A DNA stretch of 64,000 bases. Source: Blautia wexlerae DSM 19850. Lineage in GTDB: Bacteria > Bacillota > Clostridia > Lachnospirales > Lachnospiraceae. The position numbers and the translations under genes were made by a program. Shown piece after piece: positions 2,421 to 21,275 of this stretch. How positions within the stretch are numbered: position 1 is the stretch's first letter; each line of letters starts with the position of its first letter. The stretch spans positions 4,474,501 to 4,538,500 of the forward strand of contig NZ_CP102267.1 in assembly GCF_025148125.1 (NCBI RefSeq), written 5' to 3'. Below the pieces are notes generated by a model that did no database searches, was not told where the DNA came from, and saw only the letters and a list, made by a program, of their open reading frames with translations.

Positions 2421-5057
2421 TTACCTGCTCATGATTGCTTTTCTGATAAGATCTACCGGTATAATAAGTACTGCAAGTACCATGGATACCAGTAATGCCT
2501 TTGGCTCAAGCAGAGTTGTGTTAAATACTTTTCCGCCGATTTCAATGATAATGGTCTGAAGAACAAAGATTGCTCCCATTACCAGTACGAAGTTCTTATT
2601 CTCCCCGATATGCTCAAACAGATTAAACTTCTCAGATCTGGTATTCAGACTGTTAAAGATAATCGCATAAATGAAGAACGCAAACATAAATGTTTTCTCA
2701 TAAAGCTCCGGATCTGCACAGCCCGCAGGGATTACCCAACTGGTAATGCCGCCGATATTCTCAAGTATCAGGATAGAACCAAGGGTAATAAATATTGCAC
2801 TTACTCCGATCGCTGACTTGATGTACGGAGTCAGAATATTATCTGTTCTCTTTGCCGGCTGATCTTTCATATATCTGTCAAGAATAGGTTCTCCACCAAA
2901 CGCCATGGCAGCCAGTGTATCCATGATCAGGTTGATCCAAAGGATCTGGACAATGGAAAACGGCTCTGTCCATCCCAGGATCGGTGCAATGATATTCATT
3001 AACAGAGTACTGATATTTACAGTAAGCTGGAAAATGAGGAATTTTCCAACAGATTTCGCCATAGTCCTGCTGTTAAGCACACAGTCTTTAATGGAAGTCA
3101 AACTGTTATTAAGGATAACAACATCTCCTGCCTCCTGTGCAACTGCTGTACCATCTCCCATTGCAAAACCAATGTCTGCCTGTTTTAATGCGGGAGCATC
3201 GTTCACACCGTCACCGGTCATACCACAGACATTATCAATCTGCTGTGAAAGAGATACCAGTCTTTTCTTATCAAGCGGTTTCGCGCGGCTTACCACTCTC
3301 AGGTTCGGGAGAACTTTCTTCAGCTCTTCATCTGATAATTTCTCCATTTCTTCATGGGTAAGAACCACATCCTTCTTCTCATCTGCAAGAATACCTGCCT
3401 CTTTTGCAATGGCTACTGCAGTTTCCTCTGCATCACCGGTAACCATAACTACCTGGATTCCTGCATCATTGAGAATCTGAACAGTCTCAACCGCATCTGT
3501 TCTGACATTATCACGCAGACACAGAACTGCCATAAGAACAGTCTTTCCATCGCTGATTTTCGCTACAGAGAGAAGCTTCATGGTTCTCTTTGCCTGTGCA
3601 TGCATCTGTTCTTCTACTTTATCTTTATCTGCCTTTGTAAACTCTCTTTCTTCCCCGTCCGGAAGCATGTAATGTGTTACTTTATCAATGATATTCTCTG
3701 TAGCACCCTTCCAGTAAACAAGTCCGTTTTTCAGTTTTACAGTGGCACATTTCTTCTCGGAATCAAATCCGCTGATCTCTTCTACCTTCTCCGGATCATT
3801 GTCATAATCATTATAACCATGATCAATGGCATAAGAGAGCAGTGCTCTGTCCATGTTGTTACTTCCGATTGCCTTTCCCTCTGAGGAAATCTTTGCAAGG
3901 TTATTCAGAGTGATAGCTTCTATAAACTCCCTGCTCTGAATGGAATCCACAATCTCACCGTTACCTGTGATAAATTCTACCAGTGACAGGTTACCCTGTG
4001 TGATCGTTCCGGTTTTATCACTGAACAGCACGTTCATATAAGCAGAATCTGAAAATGCCGCCTTGTGGCTGACAAGGATATTCTTTTTATACATGGACTC
4101 TGTATTCATTGACTGAACCAGACTGTTCATCATCGGGAGTCCCTCCGGAACTGCCATGATCACGATAGAAGCCATAAGCATAACTGCTTCCGCTATTACA
4201 AGGAGAACGGAAACAACAGTGATTGCCTGATCTGCCCTGATCAGAGTCAGGACAACATGAAGGATACCTGCGATCGCTGCAGCTGACACACCCAGTTTAC
4301 CGATACCTGCTGCCACACCCTCCAGCTTCAGGCTGGAAGTATCTTTTCGCTCTTCTTCCTCGGAGGTATCTGTCAGAGCTTTGTTTATCTTTCCTAATTC
4401 AGAACTGTCTCCGATAACAGTTGCGATCATGTAACCTTCGCCTGAAGTCACAACAGAACCCATAAAGACTTTTCCATGTGAGGAGTAATCCGTAGATTCT
4501 GCCTCGTCCATATTGGTTACTGCTGCTTTGTTCTCATCTCTTGATTCACCGTTTAATGCCGCCTGAGATACTTTGATCTTACCTTCAAATAACAGACCAT
4601 CTGCCGGAACCTTATCTCCTGCCTGGATAAGGATCGTATCACCTTTAACGATTTCACTGGTAAGAATATTGACCAGCTTTCCGTCTCTTACAACTTTGGC
4701 ATAGGTCTTGCTGTATTCTTCCTGAAGCGCCTCACTTCTTGAAGTATTTCTGTACTCTGACAGGGTACTGAAACCGGTAGCAAGTGCGATTGCGATCACA
4801 ATACTGATGATCTCCACAACATCATTTCCGCCGGATAATGCAGGGACAAAGATTCCCAGCACAGCCAGGATAACTTTAAGAGCCAGAGCCGCACATAATA
4901 CCTTGATCCAGATGTCATCAAATGCGCCGATGAACATGGACCAGAGTGATTCAGTCTCTTTCTTCGCCAGCTCATTGGTGCCGTACTTCGCCTTGCTCTC
5001 GCTGACCTGCTGTCCGGACAGGCCCTGCATTCGCTCCTCTTTGTTTATTTCATTCAT
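2421..5057 (-). CDS. Calcium-type P-type ATPase (P2B-like cation pump)
   Basis: An 878-residue membrane pump predicted to export Ca2+ or a similar divalent cation. Visible motifs are the N-terminal cation-ATPase segment, the actuator loop LNGES, PEGLP in transmembrane segment 4 (about residues 304-308), the phosphorylation site DKTGT (Asp 347) and the hinge GDGVNDAPA, followed by a C-terminal block of hydrophobic segments. PEGLP rather than a CPC motif argues for Ca2+/PMCA-type and against heavy-metal pumps. The start at 5057 is preceded by AGGAGGTTGATT; an upstream in-frame ATG lacks such a site. Calcium pumps recur beside terD genes, and TerD proteins bind Ca2+, so a joint role in calcium-linked stress handling is likely but inferred. 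The specificity is unproven. Confidence 0.9.
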   Translation of the reverse strand: MNEINKEERMQGLSGQQVSESKAKYGTNELAKKETESLWSMFIGAFDDIWIKVLCAALALKVILAVLGIFVPALSGGNDVVEIISIVIAIALATGFSTLSEYRNTSRSEALQEEYSKTYAKVVRDGKLVNILTSEIVKGDTILIQAGDKVPADGLLFEGKIKVSQAALNGESRDENKAAVTNMDEAESTDYSSHGKVFMGSVVTSGEGYMIATVIGDSSELGKINKALTDTSEEEERKDTSSLKLEGVAAGIGKLGVSAAAIAGILHVVLTLIRADQAITVVSVLLVIAEAVMLMASIVIMAVPEGLPMMNSLVQSMNTESMYKKNILVSHKAAFSDSAYMNVLFSDKTGTITQGNLSLVEFITGNGEIVDSIQSREFIEAITLNNLAKISSEGKAIGSNNMDRALLSYAIDHGYNDYDNDPEKVEEISGFDSEKKCATVKLKNGLVYWKGATENIIDKVTHYMLPDGEEREFTKADKDKVEEQMHAQAKRTMKLLSVAKISDGKTVLMAVLCLRDNVRTDAVETVQILNDAGIQVVMVTGDAEETAVAIAKEAGILADEKKDVVLTHEEMEKLSDEELKKVLPNLRVVSRAKPLDKKRLVSLSQQIDNVCGMTGDGVNDAPALKQADIGFAMGDGTAVAQEAGDVVILNNSLTSIKDCVLNSRTMAKSVGKFLIFQLTVNISTLLMNIIAPILGWTEPFSIVQILWINLIMDTLAAMAFGGEPILDRYMKDQPAKRTDNILTPYIKSAIGVSAIFITLGSILILENIGGITSWVIPAGCADPELYEKTFMFAFFIYAIIFNSLNTRSEKFNLFEHIGENKNFVLVMGAIFVLQTIIIEIGGKVFNTTLLEPKALLVSMVLAVLIIPVDLIRKAIMSR

Positions 5058-5128
5058 AATAATCAACCTCCTCTTTCGGGTTTTGCAACTGTTCAATCAT
5101 GGACAGACAGTTACCGGATTTTATATAA

Positions 5129-5158
5129 AAAGAGGAACCATAACAGCTCCTCTTTTTA
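5129..5158 (-). terminator. Intrinsic terminator/attenuator between terD and P-ATPase
   Basis: AAAAGAGGA and TCCTCTTTTT arms flank a 10-nt loop directly after the third terD stop. The stem is followed by T residues on both strands. It would reduce read-through from the terD genes into the P-ATPase gene. Confidence 0.65.
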
Positions 5159-5161
5159 TTT

Positions 5162-5770
5162 TCACACAAATCTCTGGCAGAGTTCCCCAAGTCCGGGATC
5201 TGTTGTGCCATTTCCTACGGCGTTGAATTTCCATTCACCGTTATACCTGTATATTTCCCCAAAAATCATCGCAGTCATACCTGAATAATTCTCAGTTAAA
5301 TTATATTTACACATTTCTTTATTGTTTCTGGCATCAACCAGACGGATAAATGCATTCTGGATCATTCCAAAATGCTGTTTTCTCTTTACTGCCTGATAGA
5401 TATTGACAACAATGACAATCTTATCATATTCAGCCGGAACTCTTGACAGATCAATAACGATCTGCTCATCATCTCCCTCGCCTGCTCCTGTAAGATTGTC
5501 TCCCATATGATTGACTGTCCCGGATTTATGTTTCAGGTTGCCGAAATATACCAGGTCTGTTTTATCTGTAAATTTACCATTTTTCAACATGATTGCAGAA
5601 GCGTCGCAGTCGATTGCCTGATGTGATGAAGAACCAAATAATGCACCAAACAATCCACCACCGCCGGATGGCTTTGCCTCATCCCAGCCAAGTCCCACGA
5701 TCACCTTTGCTAATCCTGCATGCTCCTTTGACAGATTTACCTTCTGTCCTTTCTGTAAGCTTACTGACAT
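5162..5770 (-). CDS. TerD-domain protein, divergent third copy
   Basis: A 202-residue protein built of a single TerD domain. The start MSVSLQKGQKVNLS and the central [14 protein letters not shown] block match the family. TerD proteins are small beta-sandwich proteins that bind Ca2+ through acidic residues in these loops and take part in tellurite, phage and chemical-stress resistance. This copy differs from its two neighbours. It carries a glycine-rich insertion (SGGGGLFGALFG) after the first strands, and the DLDAAAF metal site becomes DCDASAI. It ends in GLGELCQRF where the others have QGGLAALC. Metal binding may therefore be altered. It lies 27 bp downstream of the second terD and is surely co-transcribed with it. 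Confidence 0.9.
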   Translation of the reverse strand: MSVSLQKGQKVNLSKEHAGLAKVIVGLGWDEAKPSGGGGLFGALFGSSSHQAIDCDASAIMLKNGKFTDKTDLVYFGNLKHKSGTVNHMGDNLTGAGEGDDEQIVIDLSRVPAEYDKIVIVVNIYQAVKRKQHFGMIQNAFIRLVDARNNKEMCKYNLTENYSGMTAMIFGEIYRYNGEWKFNAVGNGTTDPGLGELCQRFV

Positions 5771-5797
5771 TTTCGTCCCTCCTGTTGCCCTCCGGCA

Positions 5798-6379
5798 CTA
5801 TTCTACGTCTACACCATAACTGTTGCACAAAGCAGCCAGACCACCCTGATAACCGCTTCCAATGGCATTAAATTTCCATTCGTCACCATTCTTGTACAGT
5901 TCACCAAATACAACTGCTGTTTCAATAGAGAAATCTTCTCCAAGATCATATCTGAGGATTTCTTCTCCTGTCACTTCATTGAAGATTCTCACAAAGGCAT
6001 TAGAAACCTGTCCGAAATTCTGGCGTCTTGCCTCTGCATCATAGATGGTAACTGTAAATGCAATCTTTGTGATATTGGCAGGAATCTTTGACAGATCGAT
6101 CTTAATCTGCTCATCATCTCCGTCTCCGGCACCTGTAAGGTTGTCTCCCATATGCTGGACTGCTCCGGACGGATGTACAAGATTTCCATAGAATACAAAA
6201 TCGTTCGAATCAGAAACCCTTCCGGAATCTGTCAGACAGAACGCTGCTGCATCCAGATCGAAATCTCCGCCTGTGTCATAAGCATTGATATCCCATCCGA
6301 TACCTACAACTACATTCTTAAGTCCCGGGTTACCTTTTGTAAGACTGACCTTCTGTCCTTTTTTTAAACTAACTGGCAT
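5798..6379 (-). CDS. terD: TerD-domain protein, second copy
   Basis: A 193-residue single-domain TerD protein with both metal-site signatures: [11 protein letters not shown] near residue 40 and [14 protein letters not shown] near residue 75. The later blocks [16 protein letters not shown] and [13 protein letters not shown] are also canonical. I placed the start at 6379 (MPVSLKKGQ) because GGGAGGAAAAATAT lies in front; the frame extends to 6427 without a site. It is about 97 bp after the first terD and shares most of its sequence with it, so the pair probably arose by tandem duplication. Known family role: Ca2+-binding protein of the Ter stress complex at the membrane face; the exact ligand in this organism is unknown. 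Confidence 0.92.
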
Positions 6380-6476
6380 ATATTTTTCCTCCCATATTGT
6401 CTTATCCGCTTCGCTATACAGCTCCATACCTGATAACTGTTTAGTATTTTTACCAAACAGCCGACTGTCTCTTACA

Positions 6477-7058
6477 TTACGCTACTTCAATACCATAATG
6501 ACCGCAGAGCGCTGCAAGTCCACCTTGGAATCCGCTTCCGATGGCATTAAACTTCCACTCTCCGTTATGTCTGTAAAGTTCTCCTACAACTACTGCTGTT
6601 TCAATGGAGAAGTCCTCCCCAAGATCATAATGGATCAGTTCCACCTCATTGGATTCATCTACCAGACGGATGTAAGAGTTTGAAACCTGTCCGAAGTTCT
6701 GACGTCTTGCTTCTGCATCATAAATGGTAACTGTAAACGCAATTCTCTCAATATTTGCCGGAACCTTTGACAGATCGATCATGATCTGCTCATCATCACC
6801 TTCACCCTCACCGGTAAGGTTATCTCCCATGTGGATGACTGATTCACTGACATGCTTCAGATTGCCATAGAAAATGAATTCTTTCTCTGTAGGGCATTTT
6901 CCGTTGGCACCAAGCATAAATGCTGCTGCATCCAGGTCAAAATCCGAACCTGAATCAAAAGCGTTTACATCCCATCCAAGTCCTACCATGATCTTCTTAA
7001 GTCCCGGATTCTTCTTTGTTAAATCTACCTTCTGTCCTTTTGATAAATTAATAGGCAT
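6477..7058 (-). CDS. terD: TerD-domain protein, first copy
   Basis: A 193-residue TerD protein with the metal-site blocks [11 protein letters not shown] and [14 protein letters not shown], then [16 protein letters not shown] and [13 protein letters not shown]. Two ATG codons are possible. The one at 7067 sits directly on the GGAGG, so the start MPINLSKGQ at 7058, with eight bases of spacing, is preferred; it also aligns with the second copy. It follows telA by 29 bp. The three copies in series, two nearly alike and one divergent, are typical of Firmicutes ter loci such as yceCDE of Bacillus subtilis. Function is known at family level only. Confidence 0.92.
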
Positions 7059-7087
7059 ATCATTCATCCTCCCTTTTTTCTGTGTTT

Positions 7088-8242
7088 TTATTTTCTTACC
7101 GGTGGCACATTGTATTGTTTGTTAAAATCCTGTTTGATTGCCTCCAGACGAACCTGATCCTCCTGGCGTTTCTTTCTGGCATCTTCCTGGATCCTTCTTG
7201 TCTCTTCGATTCCATTTGTAATGGTTGCCCATGTCTTCTCAAGAGTCTCAATCTGAATGGAACTTCCGGATGCCATTTTAGCTGTCATCTTCGATACATC
7301 TACTGTATTCTGGGCATTCTTAAGAAGCATCTCATTTGTTTTCTTATCCAGTTCTGCAATAGATTCTGCCTGTATCTTCTGCCTTTTCAAAAGAATTGCC
7401 TGCGCAAGTGCCTGCTTAAATACAGGAAGCGTAACGATAAACGCAGAATTGATCTTTCTCACCAGATTGTAATTGCTGAACTCCATAGTCTTGATCATGG
7501 GAATGGACTGCATTGCCACATTCTCTGCTGTTCTCAGATCCTGTGTCCTCTGTTCCAGCATCATCAGTGCCTGATTCAGACTGGTAAGTTCAAACTGAAT
7601 AGACTGATCTCCCGTATTCTCCATATCCTGCTGTCTCTGGGCAATGTAGGCTTCAATCTCTTTACATGCCTGTTCTCCTGCAAGGATATATTTCACCAGT
7701 TCATGATAATAATCCACATTGGTCTTAAACATGGTATCCAGCTTTTTGTTGGACTGTTTGATTTCAGACTCATATCCTTTAAGCTGAACATAAATCTTAT
7801 CAACTTCTTCGCCCATTGTGTGATACTTGGCCAGTATCTTATCCAGCTGTTTTCTGAAATTTCCGAAAAGCTTTCCGAAAAGTCCCGGATTATCCTTAAT
7901 TTCATTAATGTCAAACTGATCCATGATCTTTGCCAGCGATTTAAGCATCTCGCTTGTCTCATTAAGCTGCGACATATTCATGCTGTTGAGGACCACATCA
8001 GATGCCTTGGAAATCTCCTCTGCTGCTTTCGCACCAAAAGATACAATGGTATCCATATTGTAAACTTCGATCGTGCTGACAATATCGTCCACTTCTTTTG
8101 AATTGACCAGCTCAGCATTCATCTGCTGCCTGTCAGCGACAATATCATATTTCTCCACAACTTCAATCTCATTTTTCTCCTGAAGACCATTACCGGCCTG
8201 AGCAGGATTTCCCATAGATGATTTACCGAAATCAAGTCCCAT
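7088..8242 (-). CDS. telA: TelA/YceH-family toxic-anion resistance protein
   Basis: A 384-residue, largely alpha-helical protein of the TelA family (PF05816). Members include KlaA/TelA of RK2 plasmids and B. subtilis YceH, linked to resistance to tellurite and other toxic anions and to some antimicrobials. The sequence shows long amphipathic coiled-coil helices (for example [20 protein letters not shown] near residue 170), no membrane segment and a C-terminus rich in charged residues ([17 protein letters not shown]). It is therefore probably a cytoplasmic scaffold. It follows the YceG-like gene by only 6 bp and precedes the first terD by 29 bp, so it is in the core operon. No catalytic motif is visible; its biochemical action is not known. 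Confidence 0.92.
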
Positions 8243-8248
8243 AATCTA

Positions 8249-10522
8249 CTAACCTCTCCTGAAAAGTTTTCTCCGCCATGAGGGGCGGGTACTGTTTGTC
8301 GAAATGTTATTCAGATCCGGAACCTGCATATCGTATTTATATTCCCCGATCTGGTGCTCTTCCATCAGTTTTTCTGCAAAGTAGTTCTCCACACTCTGAT
8401 AGCCTGTAGGGACAAAAAACAGAATGTCAAATCCTGCCAGGTTCAGGAATGTTACAAGAATCGAATCCTGAAGTGAAATCATCGTCTCCCCTGTATTAAT
8501 ATATATCAGTTTCGGATTCTTTTTTGTAAAATCAAATTTCTGGATCAGACGCAGAATCTCCTTCGGCAGATCCAGAATCTGCGCGATCACTGTATATTCT
8601 GTACCATTTTCCCCAATACCCTTTATCAGTTTCCGCTCGATCAGAAGCTGCAGCTTGTCAAGTATAAATTCCTGCATTTCCTCCCGAAGAAGATGATAAG
8701 GATATCTGGGATGATTCTTTATTTTATTCCGCAGAAGCTTTCCGTTTTTATAAAATTCTACGGCAAAGGCTTTCATTGGACCGGAGGCAGTTGGTTCAAT
8801 GCACGGAGCACTTTTCACAACAACGGTATCCTCTGTGATCAGTGCTGCTATGGATTCCCAGTACTGAGAAACACTTCCATCCTTCACTCCTGAGATTTTT
8901 GAAAAAATAACCGGAATATTTACCACACCGTTAACTGTGCTGAAATTAGGTCTGTATTTCAATTCCTGATCCCACAGTAGTTTTATCTCTTCATACATGG
9001 TCTGCAGATTGATAACATTCGCCTTCACATACTGCTGATTTCTGTATATCCCACTGTCCTGATACATCAGAGTATCAAGTTCTCTTTCCGCATGATAAGC
9101 GGCTGTTCCAATCTTTACCTGAGAACTCTCTTCCGGATATTCTGTGATCGCCAGACTCTCCGGATAGTTGACCTCATACAGAAGTTTATCTTCCAGACAG
9201 CACTTAATGTTCAGATCAGGACATAAGATCAGCACATCCAGTGGCAGCCGCCCAAGGAAACTCATAAACAGAGCTTCGTTTTCATTCCGGCAGCCCCCCA
9301 GATAAATAAAGCATCCAATCTCCGGTGATTTCCAGTTTATGAACAGCTTCGGCAGATATCTTCTCATCCAGCACAGCAGATACACTGCCCTGTTTGTCAG
9401 TCTGTTAAGATTTTCCCCTTCCTTCTGAGATTCAGCCAGCATAACATCCACAAATGTTTTATGCAGGATCCGCTGAAGCTCCGGATTGGCTCCATACTGT
9501 ATATTACACGCAAGTCCCAGGAGCATCTGATCTCCGGATGTGTAGTTTGACCTCTTTATCTCTGAAATTTCCTGCGGCGTTGGTCTTGGAATCTCTTTAC
9601 TTACGATCACCGTATTTCTCTTTGAATTTCTCAGTTCCTGCTGCAATCTGAACAGTTCATTTGCATAAGTAAGCTTATCTTCTGCCCCGTTTATCCTGCA
9701 GAAACAGTTATAAAAAAAACGGCTGTCATTTCCCCTTAACAGAATGCTCTCGCGGATATCATCCAGGCCGTTTCCCTTTATCCATGCATTTGTACAATTT
9801 GTAAGCGAAGGTCTGATTCCATACAGTCTCTCATTGTTAAGTTCATTCTGAATCTCATCTCTGACCTTTTTCACACAATATCCCTGCGGAAATGGCTGCA
9901 AACCTTCCATCTGCAAACTGTCTGAAAGAACGGAACCCGGATCTGTTTTCAGATATCCCTGATCCCCTGCATACTGAAGCAGTACTACATCACAGCCTGC
10001 ATTGGAAAGAATCGATATGAGCATTAACTCATAATTGCTTATCTGCCCTTCATATAATATTTTAGGGATATGGTTCTCTCCAAGCTGATTTACAATGCGT
10101 TCAAATTTATAATACAGCCAGCACATGAACTTGATATATGCGTTCCTGAGCATATTCTCGGTTTTCCCGGCTTTTCGCAGGGAATCCAGAGAGTCATAAA
10201 TGGAGGCTGCCACATTCTGTCTCTGAAACTCATTCATCCTTGGCAGCCATTTTCTCAGACTGACATGGATAAAATCCATACTCATCTGAAAATCCATTCC
10301 CATTATTTCATTATAATATGCAAGATTCCCCTCATCGGGATTAGGTATCTTCCCTTCGATAACCACTCCGGTTCTTCTTGCTGTATCATAATATTTCTTT
10401 ATAAATTCGCCGACTTCTTCAGAATATCCGTTGATACGGTAGAAATAAACACCTTTCTCCCGCCTGCTGTTCAGTTCGACAAAATAATCACTGAGGTTTT
10501 GAATTTTTTTGTGTTCCAACAT
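8249..10522 (-). CDS. yceG: YceG-like protein of the Ter biosynthetic module
   Basis: A 757-residue protein matching the YceG family (PF14266, described as a putative component of the Ter biosynthetic module). In B. subtilis the homologue lies between yceF and yceH (telA), the same order as here. I see no transmembrane segments. The protein appears to have repeated alpha/beta units (for example IPKILYEGQISNYELMLISI near residue 170 and PKLIYINTGETMISLQDSIL near residue 680), suggesting internal duplication of a nucleotide-recognising fold, but this is only a visual impression. GGTGAG precedes the ATG. It is the first gene of the minus operon and is read from the promoter at 10646-10674. The reaction is unknown. 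Confidence 0.85.
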   Translation of the reverse strand: MLEHKKIQNLSDYFVELNSRREKGVYFYRINGYSEEVGEFIKKYYDTARRTGVVIEGKIPNPDEGNLAYYNEIMGMDFQMSMDFIHVSLRKWLPRMNEFQRQNVAASIYDSLDSLRKAGKTENMLRNAYIKFMCWLYYKFERIVNQLGENHIPKILYEGQISNYELMLISILSNAGCDVVLLQYAGDQGYLKTDPGSVLSDSLQMEGLQPFPQGYCVKKVRDEIQNELNNERLYGIRPSLTNCTNAWIKGNGLDDIRESILLRGNDSRFFYNCFCRINGAEDKLTYANELFRLQQELRNSKRNTVIVSKEIPRPTPQEISEIKRSNYTSGDQMLLGLACNIQYGANPELQRILHKTFVDVMLAESQKEGENLNRLTNRAVYLLCWMRRYLPKLFINWKSPEIGCFIYLGGCRNENEALFMSFLGRLPLDVLILCPDLNIKCCLEDKLLYEVNYPESLAITEYPEESSQVKIGTAAYHAERELDTLMYQDSGIYRNQQYVKANVINLQTMYEEIKLLWDQELKYRPNFSTVNGVVNIPVIFSKISGVKDGSVSQYWESIAALITEDTVVVKSAPCIEPTASGPMKAFAVEFYKNGKLLRNKIKNHPRYPYHLLREEMQEFILDKLQLLIERKLIKGIGENGTEYTVIAQILDLPKEILRLIQKFDFTKKNPKLIYINTGETMISLQDSILVTFLNLAGFDILFFVPTGYQSVENYFAEKLMEEHQIGEYKYDMQVPDLNNISTNSTRPSWRRKLFRRG

Positions 10523-10645
10523 ATAAGTATCTCACCTTCAATATCTGCTTATCTTATTTCTGTTCATGATAAGTTCTACAGTAATTTCATAAAATAATGC
10601 GGAACCATAATTTTCTCCAAATTTTCGTATAAATTCTACCTCAAA

Positions 10646-10674
10646 ATTGTATCATATTGCTATTTATATTTCAA
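10646..10674 (-). promoter_or_regulatory. Promoter of the yceG-telA-terD operon
   Basis: On the minus strand TTGAAA (10669-10674) and TACAAT (10646-10651) are separated by exactly 17 bases, a good sigma-A promoter about 120 bp before yceG. The rest of 10523-10843 holds a repeat copy (10740-10796) and the leader of the divergent CitE-like gene. Confidence 0.7.
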
Positions 10675-10739
10675 GAAAATTCCCCTGTTCTTTCTATGGC
10701 TTATTCCCCTGAAATGTGCTATGATGTAGCTGCTGACTC

Positions 10740-10796
10740 GGTCCTTCACACTGTGATGGACCGGATTACCTGCAGTATTTTATTGAATTTCTATAA
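10740..10796. repeat. Copy of intergenic palindromic repeat family Y
   Basis: It contains the hairpin GGTCCTTCACA...TGTGATGGACC followed by TGCAGTATTTTATTGAATT and CTATA. The same order of blocks, with about 80% identity by eye, occurs at 17062-17120. It lies in the leader of the CitE-like gene. Confidence 0.65.
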
Positions 10797-10843
10797 GGTA
10801 CCCTATTTACGGGAATTTTTGTAGATATGTCAGAAGGAGTGTT

Positions 10844-11806
10844 ATGAAAAATAATGTTTTATATTACAGTGTAGGTCCATTACTCTATTGTCCTGCCAAC
10901 AGAATATCCATCACTGATTCTCTGATAAATGAAAGATTCGGGAACAGATTTTCTCTTGCTCTCTGTCTTGAAGATACCATAAACGACGATCATGTTGAAG
11001 AAGCCGAGCAGATACTGATTTCTTCTCTCAGCCAGATATTCATACAGCATGAACAAAAGCCATTCTATCTGCCCAAAATATTTATCCGGGTTCGGAATCC
11101 ACAGCAGATTCAGAGATTAACAAAAGCTCTTGGGCAATCCATTAAGATTGTTACCGGTTTCATCGTCCCTAAATTCAGCCCGGATAACGCACAAAGTTAT
11201 ATTGAGCAGATGATCCTCGTCAATGAACTTGTCGCAAAAAAGCTTTACATGATGCCTATTTACGAAAGTCCCTCCATTATAGATTTGCGAAACAGAATTG
11301 ATATTCTCTATTTGTTAAGGGATTCTTTAGCCAGAATTGAAGATCTTATATTGAATATACGTGTTGGCGGAAATGATCTGTGCCATATGTTTGGGTTTCG
11401 CAGACATGCCAATGAATCTATTCACAGCATCAGACCTGTTTCAGATATTTTCTCAGATATTATCACTGTATATGGTATGGATTATGTGATTTCCGGTCCT
11501 GTATGGGAATATTATGCCGGTGACAGCTGGAAAGAAGGAATGATTCAGGAAATCCGGGAGGACAGACTTTGCGGTTTCATCGGAAAAACCGTTATCCACC
11601 CTTCACAGATCCCTGTAGTAAACAGAGCTTATCAGGTTTCACGAAATGACTACCTTGACGCACGGGCGATTTTAAACTGGAATGCTGATTCTGCTTCCCT
11701 TGTTGCAGGAAGCAAAACCAGAGAAAGAATGAATGAATATAAAACCCATCTGAACTGGGCTAAGAAAACAGTTTATCTTTCAGAAGTTTTCGGAATAACA
11801 GAATAA
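10844..11806 (+). CDS. HpcH/HpaI (CitE-like) TIM-barrel C-C lyase of the Ter module
   Basis: A 320-residue protein resembling the 'C-C_Bond_Lyase of the TIM-barrel fold' family found in Ter neighbourhoods and related to the citrate-lyase beta subunit CitE. Supporting blocks are KIFIRVRNPQQI, LILNIRVGGNDLCHMFGFRR (metal/acid ligand region) and GFIGKTVIHPSQIPVVN near the C-terminus; the last is the classic CitE ending KTVIHPSQI. CitE-like enzymes cleave or form acyl-CoA or beta-hydroxy-acid C-C bonds using Mg2+. AAGGAGTG precedes the ATG. It is the only plus-strand gene in the locus, lying between the two minus units and ending 12 bp from the convergent StiP gene. The natural substrate is unknown; a role in making the Ter metabolite is predicted from context. 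Confidence 0.85.
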   Translation: MKNNVLYYSVGPLLYCPANRISITDSLINERFGNRFSLALCLEDTINDDHVEEAEQILISSLSQIFIQHEQKPFYLPKIFIRVRNPQQIQRLTKALGQSIKIVTGFIVPKFSPDNAQSYIEQMILVNELVAKKLYMMPIYESPSIIDLRNRIDILYLLRDSLARIEDLILNIRVGGNDLCHMFGFRRHANESIHSIRPVSDIFSDIITVYGMDYVISGPVWEYYAGDSWKEGMIQEIREDRLCGFIGKTVIHPSQIPVVNRAYQVSRNDYLDARAILNWNADSASLVAGSKTRERMNEYKTHLNWAKKTVYLSEVFGITE

Positions 11807-11818
11807 ATATTACCCTTC

Positions 11819-12871
11819 TCACGCATCCGCAAGCTTCTTAATGATTCCACAGCATTTATAATGTGTAAGTGAATAGTATTCTACAGGTGTATGTTTCTCT
11901 TCGGCAAGTCTGACAATATGCTCCAACTGAGGATTTCCCTTATATCGCTCATCGATCAGCACCTTCCAGGGAATTCTCCTCAGTAATACTCTTGTTGTCT
12001 CTCCGATCCCCGGTTTGATCAGATTAATATCGTCAATACCGAAATTCTTTCCTATATTTATTACCTCATCAATACCCTGACTTTCCACTCTTTTTTCCAG
12101 ATCAGGTGTATTCTCCATATTAAATTCCTTTTCAATGGTTTCAATAAAGTCATATGACAGATCAGAATCTGTCAGTTCTCCGTAATAGACTGCCCCATGG
12201 AAATCATCTCTGCCTATTATGTCATCTCTCAGAAAAGTACGGCTGATAAGGCCGGATACTGTACTGTTCAGGCAGGAACTTGGGATCAGGATATCTTCAT
12301 GTGTTCCGCAAAGCTCCGTAACATTTGCCGGATCTGCCACTACCGCTATGTCAGCAGAAACCCCTTCATATGCAGAGATATCTTTCTTCAATTCATTCAG
12401 GATCGCACCCTTGCCAATCCATCCGTCCACAAATAAAATCTGCTGCGGTCTATACTTTTCAAGCAGATACTTCATGGCATTATCGTCAATCCCTCTTCCT
12501 CTGATAATTGAAATGGAATAATGAGGCACATTTATACCATATTTGAATTTGATGTATCGCTTCACAAGGATACCAATTGGGATTCCCGCTCTGGCAAGAG
12601 ATACCAGGACAATTTTCTTTCCCTTATTCTCTATGATCTTATCTGCCAGCATTCCTACTGCATTGGCAACCGGCTTCGCATAATGTTTCAGCGCATTATG
12701 ATATACCTGCATATACTGATCTGTAGGAACATATTCAACAGGCAGCATCTCGCTGTAATGTTTTCCGGACTGAATCAGTTTCTCCCGCACTTTGGCAGGC
12801 TGAGGTTCTACCAGCCCGGTAATATCCTTCAATAATAAAATCACATCTTCTTCTGAATAGGAACTTCTCAA
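11819..12871 (-). CDS. StiP-type phosphoribosyltransferase-like protein
   Basis: A 350-residue protein of the family annotated 'cysteine protease StiP' or PRTase_1 (PF11202). The PRPP-type core is visible: VLVSLARAGIPIGIL near residue 110 (pyrophosphate loop), ILFVDGWIGKGAI near residue 165 (PRPP loop with acidic residue and GK), then DIAVVADPANVTELCGTHEDILIPSSCLNSTVSGL and a small C-terminal domain rich in YSLTHYKCC. The 'protease' label of this family is historical; the fold points to a phosphoribosyltransferase acting on an unidentified base. It is the last gene of marR-TRSP PRTase-StiP, with a one-base gap to its partner, indicating translational coupling. Two different PRTases side by side is a signature of Ter biosynthetic modules. 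Confidence 0.85.
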   Translation of the reverse strand: MRSSYSEEDVILLLKDITGLVEPQPAKVREKLIQSGKHYSEMLPVEYVPTDQYMQVYHNALKHYAKPVANAVGMLADKIIENKGKKIVLVSLARAGIPIGILVKRYIKFKYGINVPHYSISIIRGRGIDDNAMKYLLEKYRPQQILFVDGWIGKGAILNELKKDISAYEGVSADIAVVADPANVTELCGTHEDILIPSSCLNSTVSGLISRTFLRDDIIGRDDFHGAVYYGELTDSDLSYDFIETIEKEFNMENTPDLEKRVESQGIDEVINIGKNFGIDDINLIKPGIGETTRVLLRRIPWKVLIDERYKGNPQLEHIVRLAEEKHTPVEYYSLTHYKCCGIIKKLADA

Positions 12872-12872
12872 A

Positions 12873-13979
12873 TCAGCACCACCTTACAACTGTAATATCC
12901 TTGTTCTGCATCCGGACAGCATTTATCAGCGTTTCCTGACTCTCCTTTATTTCCGGGGAATCTGTGACAATCAATACCTTGTCATATTTTCCTATATCGT
13001 AAATAAACGTTCTCCTGTCCGGATCATATAAACTTTTCAGTTCATATCTGCTGTGAAGGGGATACTCTTTTTCCAGACTCACAGCAATGGGACTTCTTGT
13101 AGTCGAATGGCACCTTACTTCGGCTCCCTCTTTTTCCATCTTTCTTCCGATATAAAGTGCAGGGAACATAAACTCCTCAGTGCCGATCACCAGTATTCTT
13201 TTGCCAGATATATTATCAGCCATGTTTCCGGTTTTCTCCCGGATTTCTCTCCACAGATTCTCACATGCTTCTTCATATTTCCCGGAATCAATCAGTCTGC
13301 GGGCATCCATCCGGTCTTTAACATAAATCGTTGTATACTCTGCGGCCTTATCCGGACATTTATAATAAAATCCGTCTCCCTTAAATGTTTCTGCTCTGTC
13401 TCCGTAAGTACTGTGATCCGTTTTTACCAGATAATACAGAGAAATCCCCTGTCTCTTATAACGTTCCAGATTCTCCTCGCTCATTCCGTTTAACAGAGAT
13501 GCTACTGAATATTTAAATTTTCCGTCATATTCCCTGTCAAGAATACTGATGATATTCCGAATTGTTTTTCCGGTAGTTACTTCATCCTCGATAAATATGA
13601 TCCGATCCGTCTCCGCCACTGCTCTGTCAATATCATCTTTTACCAGCTTCTGCTCTGTGGCATGGCTGTGTTCCTCGGAAAAAAACAGATAATTCACGCC
13701 GGGAATAACTTCTCTGGTGGTCTGAATATAATCTGCCCCCACAGTAATCGCTGCCTGAGCACCTATGGCAGTTGCTGTCTCCGCAAAGCCCACCAGCAAA
13801 AGTTTTTCATCTTTGTATTTCTCCCTGAAAGTATCTGCCAGAGCAGCAAATAAATCCAGTGCCTTTGATGGCACTACCGGAATATGCTTTCCCTGAAGCG
13901 GATCCACTACCAGATAGTTTCTCTTCGTATTATTTTCCCTTTTTGCGATCTTTACTAAATCCTTCTCAGTATATTCCAT
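12873..13979 (-). CDS. Phosphoribosyltransferase with C-terminal TRSP domain
   Basis: A 368-residue two-domain protein. Residues about 35-190 form a PRTase: LLLVGFAETATAIGAQAA (pyrophosphate loop) and IIFIEDEVTTGKTI (acidic PRPP-binding loop). The rest is a TRSP domain (PF12500), which begins with ILVIGTEEFMFPALYIGRKME and holds the eponymous TRSPI motif in CHSTTRSPIAVS. The substrate is unknown; Ter-module PRTases are predicted to attach ribose phosphate to an uncharacterised base, with the HAD and CitE-like enzymes acting on the product. It starts 11 bp after marR and is followed by the StiP-type PRTase after one base. The domain call is firm, the pathway is inference. Confidence 0.88.
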   Translation of the reverse strand: MEYTEKDLVKIAKRENNTKRNYLVVDPLQGKHIPVVPSKALDLFAALADTFREKYKDEKLLLVGFAETATAIGAQAAITVGADYIQTTREVIPGVNYLFFSEEHSHATEQKLVKDDIDRAVAETDRIIFIEDEVTTGKTIRNIISILDREYDGKFKYSVASLLNGMSEENLERYKRQGISLYYLVKTDHSTYGDRAETFKGDGFYYKCPDKAAEYTTIYVKDRMDARRLIDSGKYEEACENLWREIREKTGNMADNISGKRILVIGTEEFMFPALYIGRKMEKEGAEVRCHSTTRSPIAVSLEKEYPLHSRYELKSLYDPDRRTFIYDIGKYDKVLIVTDSPEIKESQETLINAVRMQNKDITVVRWC

Positions 13980-13990
13980 TTTTACTCCTT

Positions 13991-14428
13991 CTACTGATAT
14001 GATCTGAAAAATGCCTGCAGCTTGGTCAGAGCTTTCGTCAATGCCTCTGTCTCCTCCACATTTAGGCCTTTAAGTACAGCCAGTATCATCTTCTCATGGA
14101 AATCTTTATGATGGTAATAAGCTTTCTTCCCCTGTTCTGTCAGGGAGATCAGCACAACCCTTCGGTCCTCCTGACTTCTCATACGCTGGATATATCCCTT
14201 CTTTACAAGATTATTCACAGCGATCGTCAATGTACCCACAGTCACATTCAGTTCTCTGGCTACTGTTGACATATTCTTCTGTTCCCGGATACCTACTGCA
14301 TTAATAATGTGCATATCATTGACGGAAATATTCTTATATTCTCCCGTAATCAATGCCCGTTCTTCCAGGTCCAGAATCTCATTAAATAAATTGACCAGTA
14401 CATCATTAATTGCCTCATAATGGTTCAT
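13991..14428 (-). CDS. MarR-family transcriptional regulator
   Basis: A 146-residue winged-helix repressor. The HTH is NMSTVARELNVTVGTLTIAVNNLVKKGYI (residues about 55-85) followed by the wing RMRSQEDRRVVLISLTEQGK. The start at 14428 has GGGAGGTAACCGG in front; the longer frame to 14482 lacks a site. It heads the operon containing the two Ter PRTases, so it could control their expression or its own. MarR proteins usually respond to small phenolic or lipophilic compounds. A sister type (FabT) regulates fatty-acid synthesis elsewhere in Firmicutes, but no fab genes are here. Ligand and operator are not evident. Confidence 0.88.
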   Translation of the reverse strand: MNHYEAINDVLVNLFNEILDLEERALITGEYKNISVNDMHIINAVGIREQKNMSTVARELNVTVGTLTIAVNNLVKKGYIQRMRSQEDRRVVLISLTEQGKKAYYHHKDFHEKMILAVLKGLNVEETEALTKALTKLQAFFRSYQ

Positions 14429-14511
14429 CCGGTTACCTCCCTCTTTTTGCTTAAGCAATTCCATATAGCATTGCTGTAGCATGTTTGTACATTATGGTTA
14501 TATTGCTACCT

Positions 14512-17138: not shown

Positions 17139-17567
17139 TTACAAAATTACCAGCTCATCCCCCGGGTGGATCACACCTCCGTGGAGAACCTTCGTAAAAA
17201 CTCCCTGTTTCGGCATAATGCACTCTCCCATTTTCTTAAAGATCGCACATCCGCTGTGGCATTCTTTTCCAATCTGTGTCAGCTCCAGGACTACATCATT
17301 GCACTGGAATTTCGTGCCGATCGGAAGTGTGGCAAAGTCGATTCCCTGAACCACCAGGTTCTCTCCGAATGCCCCGTCTTCCACCTCTGCACCTCTGGCG
17401 CGAAAATCTTCAATCTTGTCAGAAGAGAGCAGACTTACCTGACGGTGCCATTTTCCGGCATGGGCATCACCCTCGATTCCCCAGTCCTCAATTACTTTAA
17501 TCTCCGGAACACTTGTCTTCTGTATTCCTTTTCTTTCACTTGTACAAACCGCAATTACTTTTCCCAT
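17139..17567 (-). CDS. MOSC-domain protein
   Basis: A 142-residue single MOSC domain (molybdenum cofactor sulfurase C-terminal type). Typical blocks are the start GKVIAVCTSERKG, IEGDAHAG near residue 32, RQVSLL, the GAFGENLVVQGID block (FGENL is the family signature) and GKECHSGCAIF with conserved cysteines. Standalone MOSC proteins bind the molybdenum cofactor or transfer sulfur to it. It is the last of three minus-strand Moco genes (moaC, mogA, MOSC); the 166-bp gap upstream contains no clear gene. Its neighbours strongly support a Moco-related role. The exact partner enzyme is not in this window. Confidence 0.88.
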   Translation of the reverse strand: MGKVIAVCTSERKGIQKTSVPEIKVIEDWGIEGDAHAGKWHRQVSLLSSDKIEDFRARGAEVEDGAFGENLVVQGIDFATLPIGTKFQCNDVVLELTQIGKECHSGCAIFKKMGECIMPKQGVFTKVLHGGVIHPGDELVIL

Positions 17568-17733: not shown

Positions 17734-18222
17734 TTATCTTGCGCAGTTCCTTGCTTCCCCTGTCATGATCTCAATGCCATGTTCAAGCGCATCAATAATA
17801 TACTCCAGGCTCTCTTTTACAGCTTTCGGACTTCCCGGCAGGTTAATGATCAGTGTTTTTTTGCGGATACCTGCCGTAGAACGGCTGAGCATGGCGCGTT
17901 TCGTGATGGTCATGCTGTACGCACGCATTGCCTCCGGAATCCCCGGTACACGTCTGTCAATAATATCCTCCGTTGCCTCCGGTGTAATATCTCTGGGTGA
18001 AAAACCGGTTCCGCCTGTTGTCAGGATCAGTTCCGCTGTGCCGCTGTCTGCGATTTCCGCCATTCTCTCTGACAGCATCTTTCTGTCATCCGGCAGAACA
18101 TCTTCAGCCACAACCTCATATCCATTCTTCTCAACAATCTCTCGGATCGCCGGTCCGCTTAAATCCTCACGTTCTCCGCGATATCCCGTATCACTGGATG
18201 TAATGATCGCTACTCTTTTCAT
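17734..18222 (-). CDS. mogA: MogA/MoaB-type molybdopterin adenylyltransferase
   Basis: A 162-residue protein of the MogA/MoaB/Cnx1G fold, close to the typical length. Motifs are TSSDTGYRGEREDLSGPAI at the N-terminus, LTTGGTGFSPRDITPEAT (residues about 66-83, the MPT-binding signature GGTGxxPRDxTPEA) and LPGSPKAVKE near residue 128. It adenylylates molybdopterin with ATP before molybdate insertion. It is 129 bp downstream of moaC on the same strand. The MoaB and MogA groups cannot be separated by eye; in Clostridia either name is used. Confidence 0.92.
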   Translation of the reverse strand: MKRVAIITSSDTGYRGEREDLSGPAIREIVEKNGYEVVAEDVLPDDRKMLSERMAEIADSGTAELILTTGGTGFSPRDITPEATEDIIDRRVPGIPEAMRAYSMTITKRAMLSRSTAGIRKKTLIINLPGSPKAVKESLEYIIDALEHGIEIMTGEARNCAR

Positions 18223-18351
18223 TTTATAAAAACCTCCCTGTCGGGCAGATAAAAAATTTTTTCGTCATCTGCCATTCTGTATTTCCATTATACACATTTC
18301 TTTTATTTTACCCAACAAATATTTTGCAAATCGCAAAGCAATTCGTGGATA

Positions 18352-18828
18352 TCAAAAATGGAAATCTCCACTCTTACCACCCGTCTTTTCAACCAGATGA
18401 ATATTGGACATTACCATATGCTTGTCAATTGCCTTACACATATCGTAGATCGTCAGAAGTGTCACCTGAACCCCTGTCAGCGCCTCCATTTCCACACCGG
18501 TCTTGCCCTCTGTTTTCACTGTACAGAAAGCGCGGATAATTCCGTTTATCTCATCCAGTTCATAGTCTACGGAACATTTCTGGATCGGAAGCGGATGGCA
18601 CATGGGAATCAACTCAGAAGTCCTTTTCACTCCCATAATCCCCGCTACACGTGCTACTCCAAGCACATCTCCCTTTTTCACGGAACCCTCTTTCACAGCC
18701 TCCATGATTGCTTCTCCTACATGAATCTCACCTGTGGCAACTGCTGTTCTGTAAGTGATATTTTTCCCGGAAACGTCTACCATAACTGCGTTTCCGTTCT
18801 CATCAAAATGATTAAAACCCTGTGACAT
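18352..18828 (-). CDS. moaC: Cyclic pyranopterin monophosphate synthase MoaC
   Basis: A 158-residue MoaC, the expected length. Diagnostic blocks are [14 protein letters not shown] at the start, [31 protein letters not shown] (residues about 48-78) and [11 protein letters not shown] near residue 120, then DMCKAIDK. MoaC converts the MoaA product into cyclic pyranopterin monophosphate, the first committed step of Moco synthesis. The start at 18828 is preceded by GGGGGATTTTGATC; the longer frame running to 18957 merely crosses the riboswitch. No moaA lies in the window. Its leader carries a strong promoter, a yybP-ykoY-like aptamer and an intrinsic terminator ending about 28 bases before the start codon. 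Confidence 0.95.
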
Positions 18829-18856
18829 GATCAAAATCCCCCTGTTTAAGTTTTTA

Positions 18857-18904
18857 CAAAAAGCGAGGCTCTTATTGTACGGGAACATACAATAAAAGCC
18901 TCGC
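18857..18904 (-). terminator. Expression-platform terminator of the moaC leader
   Basis: A perfect-looking 17-bp stem (GCGAGGCTTTTATTGTA with TACAATAAGAGCCTCGC, one G-U or mismatch) and a short loop are followed by TTTTT, on the minus strand. The 5' arm overlaps the 3' strand of the aptamer's P1 helix, so terminator and aptamer exclude each other. Confidence 0.85.
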
Positions 18905-18990
18905 CTGTTCATCACGATACGGTTGGAGTCTTTACCCACCGAAATTGACGACACCATGAATACTCATGAGTCAGTCACTCCCCTTTATCT
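18892..18990 (-). ncRNA. yybP-ykoY-like (Mn2+) riboswitch aptamer upstream of moaC
   Basis: The minus-strand leader has the conserved order of the yybP-ykoY class: AAAGGGGAGT at the 5' end, GTCGTCAATTTCGG in the middle, and AGGCGAGGCTTT closing P1 at the 3' end. These match the class's AAAGGGGAGUAGC, GUCGUCAAUUCG and GCAAGACCUUU blocks as I recall them. The class senses Mn2+ and normally turns genes on by preventing termination. Here P1 formation would disrupt the terminator at 18857-18904, consistent with an ON switch. Known targets are Mn exporters, TerC proteins and P-type ATPases; a moaC target is unusual. Identification is by eye. Confidence 0.7.
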
Positions 18991-18997
18991 AAATATT

Positions 18998-19026
18998 AAT
19001 ATAGCTTTTGAGAGTGTATTTGTCAA
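18998..19026 (-). promoter_or_regulatory. Promoter of the riboswitch-moaC transcript
   Basis: Consensus TTGACA (19021-19026), 17 bases, then TATATT (18998-19003) on the minus strand. It would start transcription just before the aptamer. Confidence 0.85.
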
Positions 19027-19090
19027 GATAATATTCGTAAGTTTTCACACATTTTCGCTACCATTCGCTTTGTTCTCAGTAATACAAAGA

Positions 19091-21049
19091 TCAGCAGATT
19101 TCTGCACCTGCAGGCATTTCCTTTTCCGGTACCATCAGGGAAAGGTTTCCGTCTGCATCTTCTGCGCAGAGGATCATTCCTTCACTGAGTACACCGGCAA
19201 GTTTGGCTGGTTTCAGGTTTGTGACTACCATAACCCTCTTACCTACCATTTCTTCTGCACTGTAGTGTGCTTTGATTCCGGATACGATCTGGCGCACCTG
19301 GCTGCCGATCTGTACCTGTGAGCAGAGCAGTTTCTTTGATTTCTTTACTTCTTCACATTTGATGATCTTACCAACCTGGAACTGAAGCTTGCCGAAATCT
19401 TCAAATGTGATCTCCGGTTTTGCTTCGATATCAATTACGTCTTCTTTTTCTTCTTTTGCAGGTTCTTCTGCTTTCGGCGGATGAAGCTCTGCCACCTTTG
19501 CAAGTACTTCTTTCAGGTCAAGACGGGCGAAAAGGATCTCCGGTTTTTCAGTTACTTTATTTCCTGACGGATAGAGGCCAAAGGTCTTAAGGTCTTCCAG
19601 TTCTCTGTCCTGTGCATTTAACTGGGCAAGGATTCTCTCTGTTGTTTCCGGCATAAAGGATTTCAGCAGAACCGCACCAATGCAGATTCCCTCAACCAGA
19701 TTGTAGAGAACTGTTGCAAGACGGTCTTTTTTCTCTTCATCCTTAGCAAGAGCCCATGGCATTGTTTCGTCGATGTATTTGTTGCAGCGTTTGAAGATTG
19801 TGAATACTTCTGTCATTGCATCTGCCACGCGGAGTTTATCCATTTTTTCGTTTACTTTGGCAGGTACGGAGAGAATGAAGTTCTTCAGATCATCATCTAC
19901 AGGTTCTGTAACGCCTTTGTTTTCTACCACACCGCCAAAATATTTGTTTGACATGGAAATGGTACGGTTTACAAGGTTTCCAAGGGTGTTAGCGAGTTCA
20001 GAATTGAGACGCTCTACCATCAGTTCCCATGTGATCACACCATCATTCTCGAATGGCATTTCATGAAGTACGAAGTAGCGGACTGCATCTACACCGAAGA
20101 AGTCTACCAGTTCATCTGCATAGATTACATTTCCTTTGGATTTACTCATCTTACCATCACCCTGAAGAAGCCATGGATGTCCGAATACCTGTTTCGGAAG
20201 TGGCAGATCCAGTGACATCAGGAAAATCGGCCAGTAAATTGTATGGAAACGGATGATGTCTTTACCGATCAGATGCAGGTCTGCAGGCCAGAGCTTGTTG
20301 AACTGGTCTGTGCTTTCGCCATCGCAGTCGTAGCCGATTCCTGTAATATAGTTTGTAAGGGCATCAAGCCATACATATACTACGTGTTTCGGATCAAAGT
20401 CTACCGGGATTCCCCATTTGAAGGAAGTTCTGGATACACAGAGATCCTGAAGTCCCGGGAGAAGGAAGTTGTTCATCATCTCATTTTTACGGGATTCCGG
20501 CTGGATGAAGTCCGGATGTGTATTGATGTAGTCGATAAGTTTGTCGGCATATTTGCTCATTTTGAAGAAATATGCTTCTTCTTTTGCAGGTACACATGGG
20601 CGTCCGCAGTCCGGACATTTGCCGTCTACAAGCTGGGATTCTGTAAAGAAAGATTCGCATGGTGTACAATACATTCCTTCATAGTGTCCTTTGTAGATGT
20701 CGCCTTTTGCGTACATTTTTTTGAAGATTTTTTTGACCTGTTTTTCGTGGTCTTCATCTGTGGTACGGATGAATTTGTCGTAGGATGTGTTCATCAGATC
20801 CCAGATTCTTTTGATCTCACCGGATACGTTGTCTACGAATTCTTTTGGAGTGATTCCGGCTTCTTCGGCTTTTAATTCGATTTTCTGACCATGTTCGTCG
20901 GTTCCTGTCTGAAAGAATACGTCATAGCCCTGCTGACGTTTGTAGCGGGCGATGGCATCGGCAAGGACGACTTCGTAGGTGTTGCCGATATGGGGTTTGC
21001 CGGATGTGTAGGCGATGGCGGTGGTGATGTAGTATTTCTGTTTTTCCAT
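19091..21049 (-). CDS. metG: Methionyl-tRNA synthetase
   Basis: A 652-residue class I synthetase that charges tRNA-Met. Motifs in order: TTAIAYTSGKPHIGN (HIGH motif as HIGN), a zinc-binding knuckle CTPCESFF...CPDCGRPC near residues 125-150, the catalytic KMSKSKGN at about residue 297, an anticodon-binding helical domain, and a C-terminal tRNA-binding OB fold (FGKLQFQVGKIIKCEEVKKSKKL). The start at 21049 follows AAAGGAGACAACAAACCC; the frame runs on through the leader to 21226 without a site. Expression is under a T-box leader (21451-21775). A long palindromic repeat (21085-21275) sits between the T-box terminator and the gene. Confidence 0.97.
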   Translation of the reverse strand: MEKQKYYITTAIAYTSGKPHIGNTYEVVLADAIARYKRQQGYDVFFQTGTDEHGQKIELKAEEAGITPKEFVDNVSGEIKRIWDLMNTSYDKFIRTTDEDHEKQVKKIFKKMYAKGDIYKGHYEGMYCTPCESFFTESQLVDGKCPDCGRPCVPAKEEAYFFKMSKYADKLIDYINTHPDFIQPESRKNEMMNNFLLPGLQDLCVSRTSFKWGIPVDFDPKHVVYVWLDALTNYITGIGYDCDGESTDQFNKLWPADLHLIGKDIIRFHTIYWPIFLMSLDLPLPKQVFGHPWLLQGDGKMSKSKGNVIYADELVDFFGVDAVRYFVLHEMPFENDGVITWELMVERLNSELANTLGNLVNRTISMSNKYFGGVVENKGVTEPVDDDLKNFILSVPAKVNEKMDKLRVADAMTEVFTIFKRCNKYIDETMPWALAKDEEKKDRLATVLYNLVEGICIGAVLLKSFMPETTERILAQLNAQDRELEDLKTFGLYPSGNKVTEKPEILFARLDLKEVLAKVAELHPPKAEEPAKEEKEDVIDIEAKPEITFEDFGKLQFQVGKIIKCEEVKKSKKLLCSQVQIGSQVRQIVSGIKAHYSAEEMVGKRVMVVTNLKPAKLAGVLSEGMILCAEDADGNLSLMVPEKEMPAGAEIC

Positions 21050-21084
21050 GGGTTTGTTGTCTCCTTTTTTGAATGTGGACGCCC

Positions 21085-21275
21085 GGGAAATTATTTCTCT
21101 TTCTATGCGGTTTCGGGATCTAGTAACTCTAAGTGTCTGAAAATCTGCTAAAAGCATTCTCAAAAATCTCAAACTCGCTTCGCTCAGACAGTGAGATTTT
21201 TGTTCATAACGCAGATTTCCAGGCACTAAGATTTACACGATCCCTGCAAATGCATAGAAAGAGAAATAATTTCCC
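21085..21275. repeat. ~190-bp palindromic element (family P) in the metG leader
   Basis: Outer arms GGGAAATTATTTCTCTTTCT and its complement at 21253-21275, middle arms around AAATCTGC/GCAGATTT, and inner arms AAAAATCTCA/TGAGATTTTT form one long imperfect hairpin around a ~20-nt loop. The loop on the minus strand reads CTGTCTGAGCGAAGCGAGTT and is identical in the copy at 37079-37277. Confidence 0.85.

Follow-up and report, generated by a model that had tools for sequence, protein, structure and literature searches.

The stretch of DNA analyzed here, 64,000 nucleotides long and called the window below, carries on its minus strand metG, a leader region, moaC, a mogA/moaB-type molybdopterin gene and a gene for a MOSC-like protein, in that order from upstream to downstream (Table 1). 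The best family match of metG begins at residue 61 of the listed open reading frame (ORF), and the true metG start is probably near 21049. Merely 129 nt (18223-18351) lie between moaC and mogA, the place at which another locus (L137) has an ORF of ~1 kb that we take to resemble moaA. Elsewhere in the window, at 2421-14482, there is a stress-resistance (ter-like) cluster including a P-type ATPase, TelA, YceG, a C-C bond lyase, StiP/PELOTA, PRTase/TRSP and a MarR-type regulator; three ORFs of this cluster are presumably TerD-like.

Table 1. Features of the moaC leader and its neighbors (window coordinates), and other Mn2+-type leaders of the same genome (last three lines, genome coordinates)
Feature	Position	Strand	Remarks
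Promoter TTGACA-17-TATATT	18998..19026	-	11/12 consensus matches
Block AAAGGGGAGTGAC	18986-18974	-	read directly
Block GTCGTCA	18952-18946	-	read directly
Block GAGGCTTTTATT	18902-18891	-	read directly
P1 (switch helix) 5' strand GATAAAGG	18982..18989	-	can pair with 18891-18898; 8/8 standard pairs
L1 loop GGAGTG	18976..18981	-	last base G, change 14 A>G
P1.2 5' strand ACTG	18972..18975	-	partner 18903-18906; 2/4 pairs broken
P2 hairpin region	18960..18971	-	2/4 canonical pairs lost
P3 5' strand TCATGGTGTCG	18949..18959	-	partner 18912-18921; 10/10 standard pairs
L3 loop TCAATTTC	18941..18948	-	TCA at 18948-18946; adenosine 18946 aligned to L. lactis A41
P4 hairpin	18922..18940	-	1/5 canonical pairs broken (G x A)
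AGAC>AGGC change	18899	-	common to window and G023
Intrinsic terminator	18862..18905	-	20 counted pairs, then T run
moaC (cyclic pyranopterin monophosphate synthase)	18352..18828	-	start 18828; TIGR00581 191.6 bits, cut-off 141.5
mogA/moaB-type molybdopterin gene	17734..18222	-	molyb_syn domain 120.7 bits, cut-off 85.35
MOSC-like protein	17139..17567	-	aligns to MOSC part of PRK14499, below PRK14499 cut-off
metG, upstream neighbor	19091..21226	-	ORF as listed
Leader L115	near 2,965,618		before P-type ATPase; R1 57.3 bits
Leader L116	near 4,083,920		before Na/Ca exchanger; R1 39.6 bits
Leader L117	near 1,001,995		before hflK-like gene; R1 22.6 bits

A first-pass annotation had described a promoter, three sequence blocks and, overlapping P1, a terminator directly before moaC, and direct reading of the minus strand bore this out. 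Between promoter and terminator, the blocks follow one another as GGGGAGTGAC, GTCGTCA and GAGGCTTTTATT. The P1 3' strand sits within the 5' arm of the intrinsic terminator, with which P1 competes, and the terminator ends ~30 nt upstream of the moaC start. The blocks had also been called conserved. They are indeed present, but the class motif GGGAGUA is here GGGAGUG, and the GAGGC found here is of the AGAC type in the other genus members examined. A promoter scan of 18700-19200 listed the leader promoter as the only minus-strand promoter-like site; it occupies the same position as the promoters of the ATPase-linked leaders considered below, and comparable promoters lie upstream of related leaders. 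Positions 18855-18990 fold with an energy of -53.2 kcal/mol, whereas shuffled sequences average -32.2 (sd 3.32, z -6.33), and the terminator hairpin by itself (-30.7 kcal/mol) makes up much of this excess. The architecture of the leader exceeds chance.

No Rfam match reached its gathering score anywhere in the window. The first-pass annotation had assigned the leader to the yybP-ykoY (Mn2+) class and had named the lack of an RF00080 hit as grounds against that assignment; on 18780-19080, RF00080 gave no match at E ≤ 10, let alone its gathering score of 45 bits, and RF01055 (the Moco motif) likewise gave no match at E ≤ 10. The best RF01055 match in the genome scored 13.3 bits, away from the locus and under the cut-off of 36, and neither model returned anything above cut-off in the window's own genome. 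Eight Rfam matches that did appear on 18780-19080 at E ≤ 10 (micro-RNA, IRES, snoRNA, RNA-OUT and sok-like) were rejected, all being far under their cut-offs. The silence of Rfam at the window is weak evidence because RF00080 is insensitive in this bacterial class. None of 243 genomes of the class has a match that reaches its cut-off, and 40 of them have matches at E ≤ 1, many showing clear riboswitch class motifs. Even the leader of the window genome that scores best with the R1 model described next (L115) obtained only 18.6 bits from RF00080, and an intact leader of the genus (L122), tested alone, was not reported.

A clade-specific covariance model, R1, was trained on 22 clostridial aptamers taken from 22 of 30 loci found via RF00080, among 45 matches listed, and it contains no leader of the window's genus. 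The 23-pair structure of its alignment is 93.0% paired versus 70.2% in shuffles, and 20 pairs are changed on both sides versus 15.7 in shuffles. R1 recovers mntP (53.7 bits) and alx (25.4 bits) of Escherichia coli, which are termed Mn-sensing riboswitches in a passage of one report (PMC9603457). Across 41 loci of the genus, R1 scores ranged from 18.9 to 59.9 bits, and the window leader (18.9 bits, E 0.02-0.06) and its twin in B. wexlerae (genome G058) were lowest. The leader of G023, which together with the window genome (G000) and G058 makes up the clade referred to below, scored 22.4 bits. Scores of 37.4-45.9 bits were obtained for 12 of 13 ATPase-linked leaders of the genus; the thirteenth, L016, is without its 5' half and was unmatched. 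Taken by itself, a low R1 score says little about decay, since eight hflK-type leaders whose motifs are intact obtain just 22.5-27.5 bits. With R2, a model built from 11 leaders of the genus, the window leader scored 57 bits (E 5e-13). Through these genus relatives and the clade-specific model, the yybP-ykoY assignment proved right by ancestry, though not by RF00080.

In a DNA search of 145 genomes, including the window's own, matches with E < 0.001 were confined to the same genus. BLASTN of the window leader against leaders of the genus gave E-values of 9.9e-26 for G023, 8.5e-20 for G016 and 1.8e-14 for G013, and no significant second copy was found by DNA similarity in the window's own genome. 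Identity to ten metG-linked ATPase leaders is 70-79%. The ATPase-linked leaders of the genus are followed by a P-type cation ATPase and in most cases preceded by metG. The full order metG, leader, P-type ATPase, moaC occurs in G013, G055, G034 and G059, the segment from leader through ATPase to moaC also in B. schinkii (G052) and at L147, and the order ATPase-moaC also in G028. The ATPase of these relatives has full cation-ATPase Pfam domains, and its best NCBIfam models are of Ca2+ type, under their cut-offs. In other species (e.g. L136, L141 and L144-L146), moaC comes after metG, and neither an ATPase match nor a leader by pattern was found; in G056, leader and moaC are divergently oriented.

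No ATPase lies between leader and moaC in the window or in Blautia wexlerae MSK.20.46 (L135), and in these 2 of 64 genomes of the genus a leader directly adjoins moaC (47 of the 64 have a moaC match). Searches for an ortholog of the ATPase found none in G000, G058 or G023 (83% complete); in G000, a paralog with 67% identity lies elsewhere, behind its own leader (L115). G023 has kept the leader, which is followed by a surface-protein-like ORF. Its moaC is on another contig, where likeness of the upstream region to the window is limited to the last ~25 bases before the start. The leader adjoins moaC, then, because the ATPase standing between them in relatives is absent, and deletion or rearrangement may have produced this adjacency. 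We also ran R1 on 99 moaC loci, comprising 29 of 30 from one set (≤1.5 kb upstream each) and 70 of 80 from another. It matched directly before moaC only at the B. wexlerae locus itself, and the sole other match was the leader before the ATPase at L147. Loss in the window of a TTGACG-N-TATACT promoter belonging to moaC itself was considered but is not supported: such a promoter precedes moaC at 9 of 28 loci outside the window and G058, including four of the six with the ATPase directly upstream of moaC, but it is missing at the other two and in the four closest relatives (L217-L220).

Both near-constant motifs of the aptamer have changed in the window. Of 42 distinct sequences from genus members that do not belong to the clade, 41 keep the final A of L1 (GGGAGUA), the lone exception, L016, having lost that part, and all 42 keep AGAC. 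These sequences came from 72 loci examined among 114 matches listed, and the A1 set, which had been cut by a pattern containing GGGAGTA, was left out of the L1 count. The window has G in place of the L1 adenosine and AGGC in place of AGAC, and G023 has GGGAGUA only; the change to AGGC removes a mismatch found in the terminators of several relatives. Fifteen ATPase-linked leaders agree with one another at 56 columns; nine of these are changed in the window and eight in G023, three being common to both. When each of the 15 was left out in turn, 11 showed no changed column, and the exceptions were JAUNPJ (L147) with one, G016 with two, G037 with six and G043 with seven. In the canonical fold, the window keeps all pairs of P1 (8/8) and P3 (10/10), two of four in each of P1.2 and P2 and four of five in P4, and G023 keeps P2 and P4 and loses two of four pairs in P1.2. 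According to passages of two reports (PMC6754395, PMC9190785), N7 of A41 in the Lactococcus lactis riboswitch contacts Mn2+. By our alignment, adenosine 18946 would be its equivalent, and this adenosine, L3, P3 and P1 are preserved in the window leader.

Folding predictions point in the same direction as the lost pairs. For the aptamer region of the window, the canonical fold has an energy of -3.2 kcal/mol versus a minimum of -26.3. As far as energy prediction goes, all 13 ATPase-linked leaders adopt a four-way fold at minimum energy (G043 with P1.2 shifted), and the leaders of the window and G023 do not. A P1-closed aptamer is predicted to be more stable than the terminator in all 13 of these leaders, by 1.0-9.0 kcal/mol, and less stable than the terminator in the window, by 4.4, and in G023, by 3.3 kcal/mol; five terminators containing no run of five T were cut at a fixed length. 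Such energies disregard tertiary and metal contacts and are a rough guide only, because the intact leader of G015 has a mean canonical P3 pair probability of just 0.09 (G016, 0.69; window, 0.00).

In all 45 pairs of intact leaders, the two leaders are more alike than the two metG genes; the same is true of just 6 of the 30 pairs in which a clade member is compared with an intact leader. Between G000 and G023, the leader is 0.82 identical versus 0.91 for metG, and between G000 and G058 the values are 1.00 and 0.99. Within the clade, the leader is under relaxed constraint and diverges faster than metG. The window genome and G058 are identical over the 262 nt from the metG stop to the moaC start, inside an identical run of 612 nt (P ~0.0008 if differences were uniform) that spans 3' metG and 5' moaC. 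We rejected this identity as proof of function, since a run that includes coding sequence does not single out the leader and recombination explains it equally. The two moaC genes differ at nine nucleotides and no amino acids, so moaC is still selected and must receive some transcription. The simplest source would be the leader promoter, read through an imperfect terminator, and read-through from metG is also possible. At the metG-ATPase junction of G042 (L016, contig C21), the leader has lost its promoter, the P1 5' strand and L1 and has kept the P3 3' strand, the P1 3' strand and the terminator; G042 has the ATPase yet a truncated leader, so a leader can also be lost with the ATPase in place.

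We interpret the window leader as a decayed Mn2+ (yybP-ykoY) riboswitch that serves as a relic promoter-attenuator of moaC, a reading to which we assign a probability of about 0.7. The leader descends from an Mn2+ riboswitch with a transcription-antitermination platform, which in relatives lies between metG and the P-type cation ATPase. The window genome, B. wexlerae and G023 form a line without the ATPase, and deletion or rearrangement would have brought moaC directly behind the riboswitch terminator in the first two. With promoter and terminator surviving and the aptamer decaying, the leader has most likely become a promoter combined with a largely ligand-independent attenuator, the outcome being low, leaky transcription of moaC-mogA-MOSC. 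We infer this order of events, the loss of the Mn2+ response and the leaky expression from the homology, gene order, losses of sequence and pairing, and faster divergence described above. Several points count against decay, namely the kept L3 adenosine, L3, P3 and P1, the identity of G000 and G058, and the six and seven columns at which G037 and G043 also differ.

It is unlikely that the former Mn2+ riboswitch, its ATPase gone, was reshaped into a functional controller of Moco synthesis, whether still responsive to Mn2+ or to a new signal. That the leader still works as an Mn2+ ON-riboswitch, raising moaC transcription at high Mn2+, we also consider unlikely. Such a switch could make use of the preserved GUCGUCA loop with its Mn2+-contacting adenosine, P3 and P1, and of a P1/terminator overlap as in the class; the R1 score is not far under those of the motif-intact hflK-type leaders, and the leader is 100% identical in two genomes. 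The near-constant L1 and AGAC positions have nevertheless changed, P1.2, P2 and P4 are damaged, the balance between aptamer and terminator is reversed, and the leader of the sister G023 changes too, with divergence relaxed. The first-pass annotation had proposed that the riboswitch directly controls moaC, which would add a member to the Mn2+ regulon, and this part of it is not supported: near-constant residues are changed, pairs are lost, and the missing ATPase explains the adjacency. A new circuit from manganese to molybdenum is accordingly unlikely.

Less probable still is that the old aptamer became another kind of sensor or attenuator for moaC (of another metal, molybdate or the molybdenum cofactor, for example) with P1, P3 and the terminator kept. 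The continued selection on moaC, the lack of another minus-strand promoter listed nearby, a leader whose rapid change was followed by identity between two genomes, and an alternative fold in which the aptamer region is stable (-26.3 kcal/mol) would all suit this idea. Against it, RF01055 was not found at the locus, G023 has three of the same changes without moaC behind its leader, and the new form occurs here in only two copies, which are identical and so show no covariation. Chance likeness of an ordinary promoter-terminator unrelated to riboswitches, to which the missing Rfam match in the window and an R1 E-value of only 0.02-0.06 might lend themselves, is already contradicted by synteny and homology (BLASTN matches to genus leaders down to E 9.9e-26, the same place after metG and the R2 score) and has next to no probability.

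The window genome has three other Mn2+-type leaders (L115-L117; Table 1), which keep GGGAGUA and AGAC and are better preserved. Further leaders of the genus (L099, L102-L110, L113, L117, L124, L127, L129, L133 and L134) are predicted to be of Mn2+ type, and the genes that follow them are hflK-like, flotillin, Na+-decarboxylase beta (OAD-beta) or members of a 141-aa family. One representative of each next-gene type was searched in Pfam (L117, L104 and L124; L105 had no match), and the others were grouped by eye. In the open-licence literature, where absence is weak evidence, we found no paper on yybP-ykoY with hflK and nothing on riboswitch decay as a set phrase. At L126 (G005, contig C33), a leader of the same sequence as the ATPase-linked L125 leader is followed by a different ORF, with no DKTGT motif within the locus; this is possibly another orphaned riboswitch or an insertion.

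The significance of the case, as a clear instance of riboswitch decay with the target gene missing, would be modest. A single genus shows the riboswitch intact together with its ATPase, apparently decaying copies orphaned from the ATPase, and a copy whose promoter and terminator front another gene. The case also cautions that motif blocks and adjacency are insufficient for calling a new regulon member. The Rfam Mn2+ model, at cut-off, finds no leader in the 243 genomes of the class, and the clade-specific model finds leaders before hflK-like, OAD-beta, flotillin and Na/Ca exchanger genes. If reshaping rather than decay were true, a riboswitch would have passed from one gene to another and been caught mid-process.

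For a molybdopterin gene, the expected RNA control is the Moco riboswitch (RF01055), to which the window locus has no match at E ≤ 10. The Mn2+ riboswitch (RF00080) is another comparison, and one covariance model spans its clostridial members, mntP, alx, the leaders of the genus and, weakly, the window. The window shares with this class the P1 that overlaps the terminator, the GUCGUCA L3 with its key adenosine, and P3. It departs from the class in having no RF00080 match, in GGGAGUG in place of GGGAGUA and AGGC in place of AGAC, in its damaged P1.2, P2 and P4, in a predicted minimum-energy fold other than the four-way junction P1-P1.2-P2-P3-P4, and in its next gene, moaC, which is neither a transporter nor an Mn2+ homeostasis gene. 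The metG-linked ATPase leaders (e.g. L121, L122 and L132) have the same place after metG as the window leader and the same promoter and terminator layout; unlike it, they precede a P-type ATPase and have a four-way minimum-energy fold. The metG-linked leaders of the genus in turn differ from most clostridial aptamers in a bulged base in P3 (a 3' strand with CGU, not of the CGGC type) and in an L3 of 8 nt, not 7 nt, and may form a structural subtype of the Mn2+ riboswitch.
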